DNA of 64,000 nucleotides from Algoriphagus sanaruensis (GTDB taxonomy: Bacteria; Bacteroidota; Bacteroidia; Cytophagales; Cyclobacteriaceae). The translations under genes were made by a program, and so were the position numbers. Under the pieces are notes generated by a model. It ran no database searches, was not told the DNA's origin, and saw only the letters and a list, made by a program, of their open reading frames with translations. The stretch is taken from assembly GCF_001593605.1 (NCBI RefSeq), contig NZ_CP012836.1:434001-498000 (forward strand). Direction: 5' to 3'. Below, in pieces: positions 3,904 to 22,193 of the stretch. Each line of letters opens with the position of its first letter. Positions within the stretch are counted from its first letter, which is position 1.

Positions 3904-4212
3904 TTAGTCCTGAGGAGCCAATTGTTTGATTTTTTTACTATTCTTAATTTTCTCAATGAACACTTTGGACGGCTTGAATGCAGGAATGTAATGCTCATCG
4001 ATTACAATCGCGGTGTTCTTTGAAATGTTACGGGCAATTTTCTTTGCTCGCTTCTTATTGATGAAGCTACCAAAACCTCTCACGTAGATATTTTCTCCCT
4101 CAGCCATGGAGTCTTTTACTACCTTGAAGAATGCCTCGATGGCTTGTGTCACATCATCCTTTTGGATTCCGGTTTTGTCGGAAATCTTGGTGATTACTTC
4201 TGCTTTTGTCAC
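3904..4212 (-). CDS. hup: HU-family DNA-binding protein
   Basis: This 102-residue nucleoid protein bends DNA as a dimer. The fold runs MTKAEVITKISDKTG, then VTQAIEAFFKVVKDSM, then the GFGSF turn that precedes the DNA-clasping arm, and the arm region with IPAFKPS. It is slightly longer than the usual 90 residues because of a C-terminal KKIKQLAPQD tail. It is the first gene of the operon leading to rng. A good Bacteroidota-type promoter lies upstream at 4278-4311, divergent from mutY. IHF-type subunits are an alternative assignment, as Bacteroidota HU and IHF are hard to separate by eye. Confidence 0.92.
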   Translation of the reverse strand: MTKAEVITKISDKTGIQKDDVTQAIEAFFKVVKDSMAEGENIYVRGFGSFINKKRAKKIARNISKNTAIVIDEHYIPAFKPSKVFIEKIKNSKKIKQLAPQD

Positions 4213-5985: not shown

Positions 5986-7335
5986 ATGGACGACCCCTAC
6001 CCGAGTTACCTTCTACTCGCTCAAATTACAGAGCCAACCTTCGCTTATTTTTTTGTCAATGGCCTTGTTTTGGCTTTGTTGCTGATTGCTTCGGCGTTAG
6101 CCTCGGGATCAGAGGTAGCATTTTTTTCCCTATCCAATGAAGAAATTTCTTCCATTCAAGAAGATAATCCCAAAATCGGAAACTTAATTTCCGAACTTCT
6201 TTCTGCGCCAAAACGCCTCCTAAGCACCATTTTGATTATGAATAATCTCATCAATATTGGGATTGTTACTCTAACCACTTTTGTTACTTGGTCCATTTTT
6301 GGTACAGATACCACAGGAATTGTTATCATCCTTATCCAGACGGTTGGGATTACCTTTGCCATCGTTTTTTTCGGTGAAATAGTACCTAAAGTGTATGCAA
6401 ATCAAGCCAAAGTATCATTTGCCATGACCATGGCTCCTATCGTGGGCTTTTTTTCAGTCATCCTAAAACCCTTTTCACTAATCCTAATGTCGTTTGGGAC
6501 ATTTATCGAAAGGAGAATTCAATCAAAAGGAATCAGCTTATCAGTAGATGAATTAAATCAAGCACTCGAATTGACCACAGAAGATACCCCTGATGAAGAA
6601 AGAGAGATTCTCAAGGGGATCGTAAACTTTGGCACCCTGACCGTTCGCCAGGTTATGAAAAGTAGACTTGATATAACTGCAATAGATGCTGAAATTGACT
6701 TTCATGAGTTAATGGATAAAATCAATAAAAGTGGATATTCCAGAATACCGGTTTATGAAGAGACCATCGATAACATTCTAGGGATTTTATATATCAAGGA
6801 TTTACTTCCTCACATTGACCAAGACGAAAGTTTTGACTGGAAAAAACTCATTCGAAAAAGCTTCTTTGTACCCGAGAACAAAAAAGTGGATACCCTGCTT
6901 AAAGATTTCCAGCGAATGAGAGTTCATATGGCTATTGTAGTAGATGAATATGGAGGAACTTCAGGCCTAGTGACTCTTGAGGACCTAATCGAAGAGATTA
7001 TAGGCGAGATCAATGATGAATTTGACGACACGGACAACTTCTTTTTTCAAGAAATCGACCAAGATACGTTTGTGTTTGAAGGCAAAGTTTCCCTAAATGA
7101 CTTCTGTAAAAAATTGGAATTAGACCCACAGGTTTTTGAGGAGGTAAAAGGAGAAAGTGAATCTTTGGGGGGCCTTCTTCTAGAGCTAAATTCCAAATTC
7201 CCTAAAAACGGAACTAAAATTATTTTTGAAAATTTTGAGTTCACCGTCCTCGCTGTAGACGCTCGTAAAATCAAAAAGATCAAAGTTCACATCAAATCCA
7301 TTGAAAAAGATGGTCTAAGCTCTTTTACAGACTAA
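5986..7335 (+). CDS. gldE: GldE-like CNNM/CBS-domain membrane protein
   Basis: This 449-residue inner-membrane protein belongs to the HlyC/CorC (CNNM) family. Residues 15-190 hold the DUF21 membrane domain (SALASGSEVAFFSL, FGEIVPKVYANQAK). A CBS pair follows at about 205-335 (TVRQVMKSRLDI, VVDEYGGTSGLVTLEDLIEEI), then a C-terminal CorC domain. Members move Mg2+ or other cations; in gliding Bacteroidota the mutY/ssb-adjacent copy is named GldE. The frame also allows TTG at 5977, but the ATG at 5986 is preferred from the upstream box. gldD, which follows gldE in flavobacteria, is not present here. Confidence 0.85.
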   Translation: MDDPYPSYLLLAQITEPTFAYFFVNGLVLALLLIASALASGSEVAFFSLSNEEISSIQEDNPKIGNLISELLSAPKRLLSTILIMNNLINIGIVTLTTFVTWSIFGTDTTGIVIILIQTVGITFAIVFFGEIVPKVYANQAKVSFAMTMAPIVGFFSVILKPFSLILMSFGTFIERRIQSKGISLSVDELNQALELTTEDTPDEEREILKGIVNFGTLTVRQVMKSRLDITAIDAEIDFHELMDKINKSGYSRIPVYEETIDNILGILYIKDLLPHIDQDESFDWKKLIRKSFFVPENKKVDTLLKDFQRMRVHMAIVVDEYGGTSGLVTLEDLIEEIIGEINDEFDDTDNFFFQEIDQDTFVFEGKVSLNDFCKKLELDPQVFEEVKGESESLGGLLLELNSKFPKNGTKIIFENFEFTVLAVDARKIKKIKVHIKSIEKDGLSSFTD

Positions 7336-7727
7336 GTAAATTTTATATTATTTCTTATATTTTATATTTTTCAAAATATTATTTTGAAAATAAAGAAATT
7401 TCATTTTTACAAAATCATTAACTCCATTTTTACTCAAATAAAAAAATGTTATTTTTTTGAAAAAATCTTAAAAAAACCAGAAATCTAAATTTTGGACAGA
7501 AAAAACCTCCAATGAGCTAATTTTGTGAGCTGATATTTGATTTTTGATCAATATTTCTTGAAATAAGGTAAAATATTTAAGCAAATTTTCAATTATATTT
7601 TTTTTAAGATTGATCTATTTTTTCAACAATACGACATAAAAACCGCCAGTTCATTGCGTTAATTTTAAAGAAAGAAAATTTTTCTGTAATTTTTGGAAAT
7701 TTTCAACCTATTAAATCGAAAAATAGA
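7336..7727. other. Very AT-rich intergenic region upstream of gltB
   Basis: These 392 bases hold no gene. They are extremely AT-rich with long A and T runs. A perfect 10-bp inverted repeat, 7368-7377 with 7381-7390, lies 33 bases after gldE. It is AT-only with a 3-base loop, so it is a poor terminator. A gltB promoter candidate is at 7492-7525, giving a leader of nearly 200 bases. I see no known riboswitch. Confidence 0.6.
7492..7525 (+). promoter_or_regulatory. Candidate gltBD promoter
   Basis: TTG at 7492-7494, a 23-base spacer, then TAATTTTG at 7518-7525 match the Bacteroidota -33/-7 pattern. Transcription would begin about 7532, leaving a leader of roughly 195 bases before gltB. Confidence 0.5.
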
Positions 7728-19289: not shown

Positions 19290-21068
19290 TTGGCCAAAAA
19301 CGATATCATAACGCGTTTTCTGATCTGGAGACTCCGCCATATGAGCAACCAGACCTTTATCCTAATCCTGAGTGGATTAGTAGGAATAGGTTCTGGATTG
19401 GCAGCAGTGATCCTCAAGCAAACTGTACATGGTATCCAGCATTTTTTGACAGAGGATTTTTATAAGGAATACGCCAATTTCCTCTATATCATTTATCCTT
19501 TGATTGGAATATCCATCGCTTATCTGATTGGGAAATTTATCCTCAAGGATGTGGGAGGTCACGGAATTCCAGATATACTTTTCAATATTTCCAAAAAGTC
19601 TAGCCTAATCCCCAGAGTAAAAATGTACAGTCGGGTGATCACTTCGGCATTTACAGTCGGCTTTGGAGGATCAGTTGGATTGGAAGCCCCAATGGTCGTC
19701 ACTGGATCTGCTATCGGATCCAACACAGGAGTTCTCATGCATCTGAACTCAAAAAAAAGAAGTCTATTGATAGGATGCGGAGCGGCAGGAGCTATCTCAG
19801 CGATATTTGGCGCTCCGATTGGTGCAGTAATTTTTGCAATAGAGGTCATTTTAATGGAAATCAGCACGGCTAGTTTCATTCCCTTGCTGATTGCCTCTGT
19901 GATGGGCTCAATTACTTCCTTATTGCTTATTGGTAAAGAGTCCTTATTCAATTTTCAAATTGAAGAATCTTTCCAGGCGATCCACATGCCTCATTATTTG
20001 CTTTTAGGTATAATCTGTGGAATGGTCTCCCTGTATTTTAGTAAAATGGTCCAGTCCACAGAACAGGTGATGGAGGATATGGGAGATCAGTGGATGCGGC
20101 TCTTGTATGGTGGAGCATTTTTAGGGTTTATGGTGTTCTTTTTCCCTCCGATTTATGGAGAAGGCTATGACACACTTAACCTATTGATCGAAGGAAATTC
20201 AGGTCAAATCCTAGATAAAAGTCCTTTTTTCTCCCAACTCGAAAACCCTTATTTGATTTTTGGATTCTTGGTAATCGTCATTTTACTAAAACCGATTGCC
20301 TCGGCAGTCACAATTGGTGCAGGCGGGAGCGGTGGAATATTCGCTCCATCTTTATACGTTGGTGGACTCGTAGGTTTTGCCTTTGCTTATTTTTACAATT
20401 TATTTGACCTCCCCTATCATTTACCCATGGCTCATTTTACTTTGGTGGCCATGTGCGGAGTAATGGCTGGTGTTCAGCATTCTCCCTTATCTGCGATATT
20501 CTTGATCGCAGAGATTACGGGAGGCTATGAATTGTTTATTCCTTTAATGTTTGTCTCGGCGATTTCTTCATCGACGGCAACTTATTTTCAAAAAGATAGC
20601 TTGTATAAGCTTCAATTGAAGGCACAAGGGAAACAACTTCCCGAATCCAAAGACCAAGAACTTTTGGATGCGATTTCTATAGAAAATGTCATCGAAAAAG
20701 ACCTGCTTCCCATCGATCCAGAGTCAAAACTGAAGGATCTAATCAACTTGGTTAAAATCTCCAAGCGAAATATTTTCCCAGTGGTGGATCAAGAGGGAAT
20801 CCTCAGAGGGATTATTACCCTTGATGATATCAGAGATATTATGTTTGATGCTGAAAAGCAAGATTCAATCATGGTCAAGCAGCTGATGCACAGTCCTCCA
20901 GAAATCTTATTGGATACCGAAAATATGCAATCTGCGATGGAAAAATTTGAAAAATCGGGTGCTTGGAATCTACCTGTAATTCAAAATGGGAGGTATTTAG
21001 GCTTCGTTTCTAAATCGAGAATTTTCAATACTTATAGAAATAGACTGCTTCGACAAAAGCTCCAATAA
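19290..21068 (+). CDS. clcA: ClC-family chloride channel/antiporter with CBS domains
   Basis: This 592-residue polytopic membrane protein carries the ClC ion-path motifs. These are GFGGSVGLEAPMV (with the gating Glu), a Gly-rich AIFGAPIGAVIFAIE, and GAGGSGGIFAPSLYVGG. The C-terminal 150 residues form a CBS pair (IFPVVDQEGILRGIITLDDI, NLPVIQNGRYLGFVSKSRI) that binds nucleotides and can gate transport. The frame opens at TTG (19290). An ATG exists 17 codons later, but ClC proteins commonly have a basic leader like FLIWRLRHMSNQ before helix B, so TTG is preferred. Downstream lies the DnaA-box region. Confidence 0.92.
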   Translation: MAKNDIITRFLIWRLRHMSNQTFILILSGLVGIGSGLAAVILKQTVHGIQHFLTEDFYKEYANFLYIIYPLIGISIAYLIGKFILKDVGGHGIPDILFNISKKSSLIPRVKMYSRVITSAFTVGFGGSVGLEAPMVVTGSAIGSNTGVLMHLNSKKRSLLIGCGAAGAISAIFGAPIGAVIFAIEVILMEISTASFIPLLIASVMGSITSLLLIGKESLFNFQIEESFQAIHMPHYLLLGIICGMVSLYFSKMVQSTEQVMEDMGDQWMRLLYGGAFLGFMVFFFPPIYGEGYDTLNLLIEGNSGQILDKSPFFSQLENPYLIFGFLVIVILLKPIASAVTIGAGGSGGIFAPSLYVGGLVGFAFAYFYNLFDLPYHLPMAHFTLVAMCGVMAGVQHSPLSAIFLIAEITGGYELFIPLMFVSAISSSTATYFQKDSLYKLQLKAQGKQLPESKDQELLDAISIENVIEKDLLPIDPESKLKDLINLVKISKRNIFPVVDQEGILRGIITLDDIRDIMFDAEKQDSIMVKQLMHSPPEILLDTENMQSAMEKFEKSGAWNLPVIQNGRYLGFVSKSRIFNTYRNRLLRQKLQ

Positions 21069-21497
21069 GCCAATTTTAGAAGAAAATTTGGAATCTGATT
21101 TTATCCACTTTCTAAGAAAAAAATAAACCTGATTTTCAGCAGTTAGAAGGAATTATCCACAAAAGATGACTCAAGTAGGAGGCATTAAATTCCTTATTTT
21201 CAGTGAATTATATATATATCAAAAGGGAGTGTGGATAAATAATTGAATTTGTGGATAAATTTTTCTTGCGTTTTTTAATCCTCAAAATTTCAATGTATTG
21301 GCATTTATTTACAAAACTTGCCAAACTCTGTCAGCTAAATTTTTACCACTTAAAACCATCTCCAAAAATCCAGAAATGAAATTTTATTTGGATTTGAAAA
21401 TGGATGAAAAATTTGAGAGAAAATTTTTCTGACTTTTTTAGAATCTACCTTATTGGCCTAGAAAAAAAAAAATTTTTACAGCCAAAGTTCTATTTTT
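21069..21497. other. Gene-free AT-rich region with DnaA-box cluster, possible origin or DnaA-binding locus
   Basis: These 429 bases separate convergent clcA and mtgA and hold no gene. The left part carries the DnaA-box cluster at 21101-21258 and a tatatatat tract (about 21209-21218). The right part is AT-rich with long A and T runs, near 21412-21490. No rho-independent hairpin is obvious despite the convergent genes. See the separate entry for the boxes. Confidence 0.6.
21101..21258. other. Cluster of DnaA boxes
   Basis: Three exact copies of TTATCCACA occur: 21153-21161 (plus), 21230-21238 (minus) and 21250-21258 (minus). One near match, TTATCCACT, is at 21101-21109 (plus). The two minus boxes are exactly 20 bases apart, about two helical turns. 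By simple base counting an exact 9-mer is expected about 0.5 times on both strands of 64 kb, so three within 106 bases is very unlikely by chance. It suggests a DnaA-binding locus: a chromosome origin, a titration site or a regulatory site. Confidence 0.7.
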
Positions 21498-22193
21498 TTA
21501 AATCCCAAAACCAACTGGCTCCAAATTGTTCATTTGCCGCAAAATCCAAGATTGTCTTCCTTTAATATAGCCAGTTGGTCTTGCTGGATTCCATCGTCTT
21601 GGATTTGGTAAAACTGCAGCAATCACAGCCGCTTGACTACGGGAAAGTTTTGAAGCAGGCCGTTTGAAGTAAGTTTGCGCTGCAGCCTCAATCCCATAAA
21701 TACCATCCCCCATTTCGATGACATTGAGGTAAACTTCCATAATTCGCTCTTTGGACCAAATAACTTCAACCAAAACCGTAAAATAGGCTTCTAAAGCTTT
21801 TCTCACATAACTTCTATCTGGCCAAAGGAATACATTTTTTACGGTTTGCTGGGTAATCGTACTTGCGCCTTTGATTCGCTTTCCTTTCTTATTTCCTTCC
21901 CATGCTTTTTCCATCGCCTCAAAATCAAAGCCCCGATGGTCAAGGAACTTTTGATCCTCAGCAGCTACCACTGCTTGTGCAGCATGTTTTGAAATATTCG
22001 TGATTGGCTCCCAATCTTTATACAGTCTTAACTCTTTTTCTGGATCCAATCCCTGCTCGACCAAGCGGATAACCATCAAAGGAGTGATCGGCACCGGTAC
22101 AAATCGGTAAAGAATAACCAATCCGATCGATAACCCTAAAAACCAAAGGGTAATCTTGAAAATGAGTTTCCCAATCCAACGAATAATCTTCAT
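21498..22193 (-). CDS. mtgA: Monofunctional biosynthetic peptidoglycan transglycosylase
   Basis: This 231-residue GT51 enzyme polymerises lipid II into glycan strands. One N-terminal membrane anchor lies at about 10-30 (LIFKITLWFLGLSIGLVILY). The GT51 motifs follow: VVAAEDQKFLDHRGFD with the catalytic Glu, KGASTITQQTVKNVFLW, and EVYLNVIEMGDGIYGIEAAA. There is no transpeptidase domain, which separates it from bifunctional PBPs. It sits eight bases after a methyltransferase gene and is likely in one transcript with it. Confidence 0.93.
   Translation of the reverse strand: MKIIRWIGKLIFKITLWFLGLSIGLVILYRFVPVPITPLMVIRLVEQGLDPEKELRLYKDWEPITNISKHAAQAVVAAEDQKFLDHRGFDFEAMEKAWEGNKKGKRIKGASTITQQTVKNVFLWPDRSYVRKALEAYFTVLVEVIWSKERIMEVYLNVIEMGDGIYGIEAAAQTYFKRPASKLSRSQAAVIAAVLPNPRRWNPARPTGYIKGRQSWILRQMNNLEPVGFGI

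Follow-up and report, generated by a model that had tools for sequence, protein, structure and literature searches.

DnaA binds TTATCCACA, and DnaA-box sites outside oriC that act on initiation have been described in E. coli, Bacillus subtilis and Streptomyces. The E. coli locus datA is described as promoting DnaA-ATP hydrolysis and as lying near oriC in E. coli strains, its early duplication being thought important (PMC4585315, PMC5835720). The minimal datA is reported to require boxes 2, 3 and 7 together with one IHF site, and the spacing between box and IHF site matters (PMC10950094, PMC4585315). The same literature describes DARS as DnaA-box elements outside oriC, of which DARS2 uses IHF as well, and reports that clusters of DnaA boxes near oriC repress untimely initiation in B. 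subtilis and Streptomyces (PMC4585315). A conserved region of high box density near the E. coli oriC has in addition been proposed to titrate DnaA (PMC12371093). Among the matches listed for the open-licence literature, no paper dealt with a DnaA-inactivating or DnaA-titrating chromosomal site in Bacteroidota.

The array considered here lies in the window, by which we mean the whole 64-kb stretch of DNA that was analyzed (C1:434001-498000 of a 3.88-Mb genome on one contig). Our best reading is that it may be an origin-linked DnaA-sequestering or DnaA-inactivating locus in Cyclobacteriaceae (Bacteroidota). Its features, in window coordinates and with the IHF consensus read as YAANNNNTTGATW, are as follows:

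19290-21068, plus strand: clcA-type chloride channel gene (PF00654 and CBS domains), which in many genera borders the array with its 3' end
21101-21109, plus strand: upstream DnaA box TTATCCACT, an 8/9 match (pattern scan)
21153-21161, plus strand: DnaA box P, exact TTATCCACA (pattern scan)
21186-21198, plus strand: IHF-consensus-like block TAAATTCCTTATT, two mismatches to YAANNNNTTGATW, inside the 68-bp spacer
21208-21219, no strand: TA run in the spacer, not kept among the aligned rows
21230-21238, minus strand: DnaA box M1, exact TTATCCACA (pattern scan)
21250-21258, minus strand: DnaA box M2, exact TTATCCACA, starting 20 bp from the start of M1
21259-21279, plus strand: CTTGC/T-run right behind the M1-M2 pair, conserved in genus-type rows and weak in others
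21498-22193, minus strand: mtgA (monofunctional transglycosylase, PF00912), which adjoins the array in the genus of the window and not in the other genera examined

The geometry of the array is thus a plus-strand box, 77 bp, a minus-strand box, 20 bp, and a second minus-strand box. For comparison, the E. coli K-12 datA region was taken by its MG1655 coordinates, and the stretches for datA, DARS1 and DARS2 were checked against the annotated genes glyV-X-Y/queG, bioD/uvrB and mutH; DARS2 could not be placed with certainty in its stretch. In datA, ATATCCACA (+) is followed after 67 bp by TTATCCACA (+) and after a further 65 bp by TAACCTATTGATA, an exact IHF match, beyond which, measured from start to start, TTATTCACA (+) lies at 97 bp and TCATCCACA (-) at 109 bp. 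The low-affinity datA boxes 3 and 4, essential in print, were not picked up by our scan of E. coli datA. The array resembles datA in being intergenic, origin-linked and single copy, and in its succession of an upstream plus-strand box, an exact plus-strand box, an IHF-type site and then boxes that include the minus strand. However, it is more compact (33 and 44 bp, against 65 and 97-109 bp in datA, start to start), it carries two strong inverted boxes 20 bp apart, its neighbors are unrelated, it belongs to another phylum, and its IHF-like block is inexact in this genome and readable either way across relatives. The likeness is therefore one of plan only, that is, of the order, orientation and spacing of sites, and we do not claim common descent. 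With DARS1 and DARS2 the array shares the property of being a DnaA-box element outside oriC, but its geometry is unlike that of the one DARS interval compared, the E. coli bioD-uvrB (DARS1) interval, where a plus/minus box pair lies 14 bp apart with a third box ~200 bp off and where no IHF match with one mismatch or fewer was found. The clusters described in B. subtilis and Streptomyces similarly consist of origin-proximal boxes outside oriC, whereas here the boxes form one compact array whose spacing is fixed and which includes an IHF-like block, the comparison being with clusters known by description only.

Composition, conservation and neighbors of the array

The preliminary description of this DNA had reported three exact boxes and one 8/9 match within 158 bases of gene-free, AT-rich DNA, two of them 20 bases apart, with a TA repeat beside them. 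All of this was found again, at 21101-21258, in a 429-bp gap (21069-21497, 27% GC) that separates clcA from mtgA and on which both genes converge, the TA repeat being the run at 21208-21219. Box P, M1 and M2 are the only exact boxes in the window. The whole genome holds 49 (24 forward, 25 reverse), against 30 (14 + 16) for a backward-pattern control, and at genome density 0.002 exact boxes would be expected in 158 bp, giving a Poisson P of 1.3e-9 for three and a clustering P of ~8e-5 after correction for 64,000 positions. Boxes with up to one mismatch are not enriched over the whole window, with 25 against 18.25 in shuffles and 25 reached in 7 of 100 shuffles. The unusual feature is the clustering of boxes and not their window-wide number. 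That the cluster arose by chance, a reading in favor of which nothing was counted, can be practically dismissed in view of this P value and of the conservation of the array in 68 of 72 genomes of the genus.

This conservation, which the preliminary description had suggested checking, extends to the spacing. The full pattern (TTATCCACA, 64-72 bp, TGTGGATAA, 11 bp, TGTGGATAA) occurs as a single copy in those 68 genomes, with 0 backward matches, and is present in all 50 genus genomes that are 90% or more complete and no more than 5% contaminated. In the family, the exact 20-bp pair of minus-strand boxes is found once each in 71 of 196 genomes, with 0 backward-pattern matches (among good assemblies, 68 of 177; by genus, 37 of 84). 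Allowing up to one mismatch, a pair is found in 127 of 196 genomes, some with two sites, against 2 backward matches in total (118 of 177 good assemblies; 63 of 84 genera), the last box often being TGTGGAAAA; the remaining 69 of the 196 lack a pair at this tolerance too. Sampling across the order gave the pair in 12 of 25 family genomes and, outside the family, where it is uncommon, in 11 of 216, three of the 11 having two matches. Five genomes of one genus (G007, G088, G133, G161 and G180) each carry the exact pair and a second, one-mismatch pair elsewhere, and the exact pairs of G007 and G088 have no array flanks.

An alignment of the loci gave 57 distinct rows, of which 54 were used after L182, L183 and L184 (from G013, G007 and G088), whose flanks lack the array, had been dropped; 24 rows are genus-type, comprising this genome, 21 mtgA-linked loci and two more genus loci. 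The box P core (TCCACA or TCAACA) begins 76-78 bp before the pair in all 54 rows. Box P itself is TTATCCACA in 24/24 genus-type rows, and in the 30 rows from other genera it is TTATCCACA in 15, ATATCCACA in 8, TTGTCCACA in 4 and TTATCAACA in 3. An upstream box is also recurrent: TTATCCAC is exact in 23/24 genus-type rows and 12/30 others, compared with 0.1% of shuffles, and with 0-1 mismatch it is found in 39/54 rows, in 38 at 52-54 bp before box P and in one at 42 bp. A third box (0-1 mismatch) lies between M1 and M2 in 16/30 rows from other genera and in 0/24 genus-type rows. Among the 42 rows with 77-bp spacing, column conservation is 97% in box P, 71% in the IHF-like block, 51% in the remaining spacer and upstream flank, and 45% in the downstream flank.

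The spacer block has a consensus near TAAnnnnnTGATTNTCA. It matches the IHF consensus exactly in 12/54 rows and with one mismatch in 22/54, against 0.8% and 11.8% of shuffled spacers, so that 34/54 rows have 0-1 mismatch compared with 12.6% of shuffles. In 41/54 rows the best match begins at -44 relative to the pair. In the opposite orientation, 8 exact and 27 one-mismatch matches (35/54 rows) were found, the shuffle figures being for the forward orientation only. The partly palindromic nature of the block explains why both directions match equally well, so that nothing can be read from its orientation and the agreement with the orientation in datA counts little. As for boxes flanking an IHF site in the manner of datA, the position of the block is fixed in 41/54 rows, but the block of the window has two mismatches and there is no preferred orientation.

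The neighboring genes are less constant. The closest named relatives of the MtgA protein are from Algoriphagus species, the best being A. lacus with 86% identity, which places the genome in the Algoriphagus group within Cyclobacteriaceae; an M28 peptidase gene precedes clcA in the window. When the first 30 pair-bearing loci (mostly 3 kb) are sorted by neighbor, 5 have clcA and mtgA, 9 have clcA without mtgA, 7 have the M28 peptidase without clcA, and 9 have none of these genes. Across 20 loci of 20 kb, clcA adjoins the pair in 12, the peptidase alone does so in 3, and there is no such neighbor in 5, three of which are the rows dropped from the alignment counts; mtgA lies beside the pair only in the single genus locus. 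As a partner gene of the array, mtgA was rejected: the array is present in only 21 of 80 mtgA loci (one, L079, ends before its presence could be judged), all 21 being from Algoriphagus or from bins with closely similar MtgA. The array thus occurs independently of the clcA-mtgA arrangement, and the constancy of its internal spacing beside changing neighbors argues against regulation of one gene.

Position of the chromosome origin

The preliminary description had proposed that the cluster could be the chromosome origin, while doubting this on account of the convergent genes and the lack of a clear skew switch. GC skew was sampled in this genome and in relatives, with incomplete coverage. Among 20 sampled 20-kb stretches of this genome, skew is negative in 3/3 at 0-0.42 Mb, +0.002 at 0.6 Mb, positive in 9/9 at 0.8-2.42 Mb and negative in 7/7 at 2.6-3.82 Mb, two of them weakly (-0.008, -0.005). 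The cumulative skew minimum of the joined 420-778 kb region is at 607.7 kb; in 10-kb bins, skew is negative in 14/15 at 460-610 kb and positive in 11/15 at 620-770 kb. Just left of the array, at 434-455 kb, it is +0.009, opposite to the prediction for an origin at the array. Within 420-778 kb, AT content measured over 300 bp peaks (81%) at window positions ~7301-7600.

Beside the skew switch, ~150 kb from the array, lies mnmG (614024-615871). Even when two mismatches are tolerated, the parS pattern has only two matches, which are perfect and lie at 613936 and 613979, just upstream of mnmG (backward control, 3 + 3 matches). The candidate oriC is the intergenic stretch at ~618431-618904, ~2.5 kb downstream of mnmG, which holds seven TCCACA cores and five boxes, one of them exact and four with one mismatch. 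A 4-kb stretch downstream of mnmG, read in six relatives, contains 4-6 cores within 500 bp in five and 2 in one, against a background of at most 2 in each of four 20-kb stretches; the cluster lies ~2.5-2.9 kb downstream of mnmG in those 5/6. As the skew switch, parS and the box and core cluster all fall at mnmG, the origin is most likely there, ~159 kb from the array. The dnaA gene was rejected as an origin marker; it is at 1.38 Mb, 0.93 Mb from the array and off the skew minimum. Among the titles listed for the open-licence literature, none concerned the origin of Cytophaga hutchinsonii.

For relatives, skew was sampled around the pair, at ten offsets in each of eight family genomes that are near-complete. 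In the seven counted, its sign fits an origin at mnmG in 58/70 stretches and one at the pair in 44/70, G013 having been excluded because its samples were centered on a distant pair and gave no single clean switch. Of the stretches between mnmG and the pair, which discriminate between the two, 15/16 fit mnmG, the exception being in G085, where skew is weak. It is hard to credit, then, that the array is itself oriC. It is the densest box cluster in the scanned 358 kb, it is AT-rich, conserved and equipped with an IHF-like block, and as a DnaA-box cluster in AT-rich DNA it has one hallmark of an origin; but it does not lie at the skew switch, skew being negative in 14/15 bins from 460 to 610 kb and positive past mnmG, and it is ~159 kb from the parS sites and from mnmG/gidA, closeness to which is usual though not obligatory, while the core-motif cluster accompanies mnmG in relatives as well. 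Skew, parS and mnmG in this genome, together with skew in relatives, thus contradict the origin proposed initially, and the doubts raised alongside it were correct. Of the observations that, according to the preliminary description, would reject an origin, a skew minimum elsewhere was found, whereas the boxes proved to be conserved in relatives. A caution follows, namely that the densest DnaA-box cluster found on a chromosome need not be its origin.

The array is nevertheless linked to the origin region. The distance between pair and mnmG is 158 kb in this genome and 325, 323, 232, 268, 127, 87, 133, 354, 151, 292, 58, 78, 330 and 190 kb in fourteen relatives, which is 1.5-8.5% of the chromosome in the ten genomes whose contigs allow the figure. 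The 15 genomes are this one and 14 of 20 fetched, chosen for long contigs with the pair; they are related and do not amount to 15 independent observations, and three are on contigs of 0.9-1.1 Mb, which limits the possible distance. In 14/15, the exact pair and mnmG are separated by 58-354 kb. In the remaining one, G013, the exact pair lies 3.0 Mb off, lacks the flanking pattern and was treated as unrelated; the 151 kb entered for this genome belongs to a one-mismatch pair substituted after the distances were seen. The 190-kb value is that of the pair of G088 without array flanks, which may not be the same element. With the direction of mnmG as reference, the array is found on either side of it, even within one genus (G141, 354 kb; G035, 330 kb). 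As with datA, then, an origin-proximal single copy is found, with the exact pair of G013 as the exception.

DnaA boxes inside genes near mnmG

A stretch of 34 kb (C1:551338-585079), at 29-63 kb from mnmG, contains fifteen of the 49 exact boxes of the genome, each within a predicted ORF; for a 35-kb stretch selected post hoc, the Poisson P is 2.4e-18. Within 100 kb of the origin there are 18 boxes against 2.5 expected. In G130, another species of the genus, 14 boxes lie at C7:281477-294622, 23-36 kb from mnmG. One gene, presumably a photolyase or cryptochrome, was compared between the two genomes: the three boxes that this genome has there recur unchanged in G130, and the aligned part of the G130 gene contains one more, although the gene was selected for similar-looking box spacings and the three of three is thus a chosen case. 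Its DNA identity is 70%, and 165/313 codons for identical amino acids agree. Elsewhere the picture varies. In G114, whose mnmG is at 979 kb, at least 38 boxes lie next to it, at 841-957 kb (50 of 113 matches listed); in G207, among the matches listed, boxes are spread along the contig and rise at 4.1-4.7 Mb; and in G116, G141 and G191 genome-wide box numbers are about equal to the backward controls. In G085, 12 exact boxes lie in ~9 kb (C1:622592-631341) and 6 in 3 kb (780794-783510), 0.4-0.55 Mb from mnmG.

The intragenic boxes likely serve as a DnaA reservoir near the origin. By analogy, the cluster looks like the same idea as the E. coli titration region in another phylum: both have many boxes close to oriC, the difference being that the 15 boxes in 34 kb are all within predicted ORFs.

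Possible roles of the array

We hold with moderate confidence, on the strength of its sequence organization, that the cluster represents a dedicated control locus that binds DnaA, present in one copy ~160 kb from the origin and with a datA-like plan. The titration or regulatory site offered by the preliminary description as its other option is supported by the single-copy, spacing-exact conservation and by the linkage to the origin region, titration or regulation as such being a prediction from sequence. In this mechanism, DnaA would bind both arms of the array, and a protein of the HU/IHF type would bend the spacer so that the arms meet. Once the locus is duplicated, soon after initiation, the complex would remove active DnaA by holding it and probably also by promoting hydrolysis of the DnaA-bound ATP. 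Less active DnaA would lower the chance of re-initiation, and nearness to oriC would set the timing via gene dosage. As for the proteins, the one PF00308 protein found in the genome is DnaA, no Hda-type inactivator being seen in that search, and the only match to PF00216 (HU/IHF family, the one family of this kind searched) is HU-like, at window positions 3946-4212 on the minus strand.

A simpler possibility is that the boxes merely hold DnaA, with no nucleotide hydrolysis. Such passive titration, which has been proposed for the oriC-near clusters of B. subtilis and Streptomyces (PMC4585315), would agree with strong boxes near oriC and with the many additional intragenic boxes that this genome has in the oriC region. 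We regard it as possible but unlikely, as titration alone has no need for near-invariant spacings of 77 and 20 bp, a single copy or a fixed IHF-like block. A site that acts in the opposite direction, reactivating DnaA by ADP release as DARS does, is more doubtful still: DARS are likewise described as DnaA-box elements outside oriC, DARS2 with IHF (PMC4585315), but the boxes of the E. coli DARS1 interval are arranged differently and without an IHF match, and the array remains origin-proximal, like datA. It is very unlikely that the array acts as a transcription roadblock or terminator for convergent genes. Its position between convergent genes in the genus and the T-run behind the pair would suit such a role, but no terminator-like hairpin was found in 21000-21600, and the neighbor on the mtgA side varies between genera while the spacing of the array is constant.

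Taking the datA-like control locus together with the intragenic boxes, we tentatively suggest that Cyclobacteriaceae might restrain initiation by two parts, a datA-like array that inactivates DnaA with an HU-type protein in the place of IHF and in the absence of Hda, and a reservoir of intragenic, origin-proximal boxes kept by selection. If so, the datA plan arose, or survived, far outside enterobacteria, which raises the question of whether the scheme of a box, a bend and inverted boxes is a general one that has evolved repeatedly. Found in dozens of genera, mostly in single copy and with exact spacing, the element would also provide a defined 160-bp target for work on the avoidance of re-initiation.

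A separate observation from the same genome concerns C1:3800001-3820000, which has 30% GC in a genome of ~40% GC and is perhaps acquired DNA.
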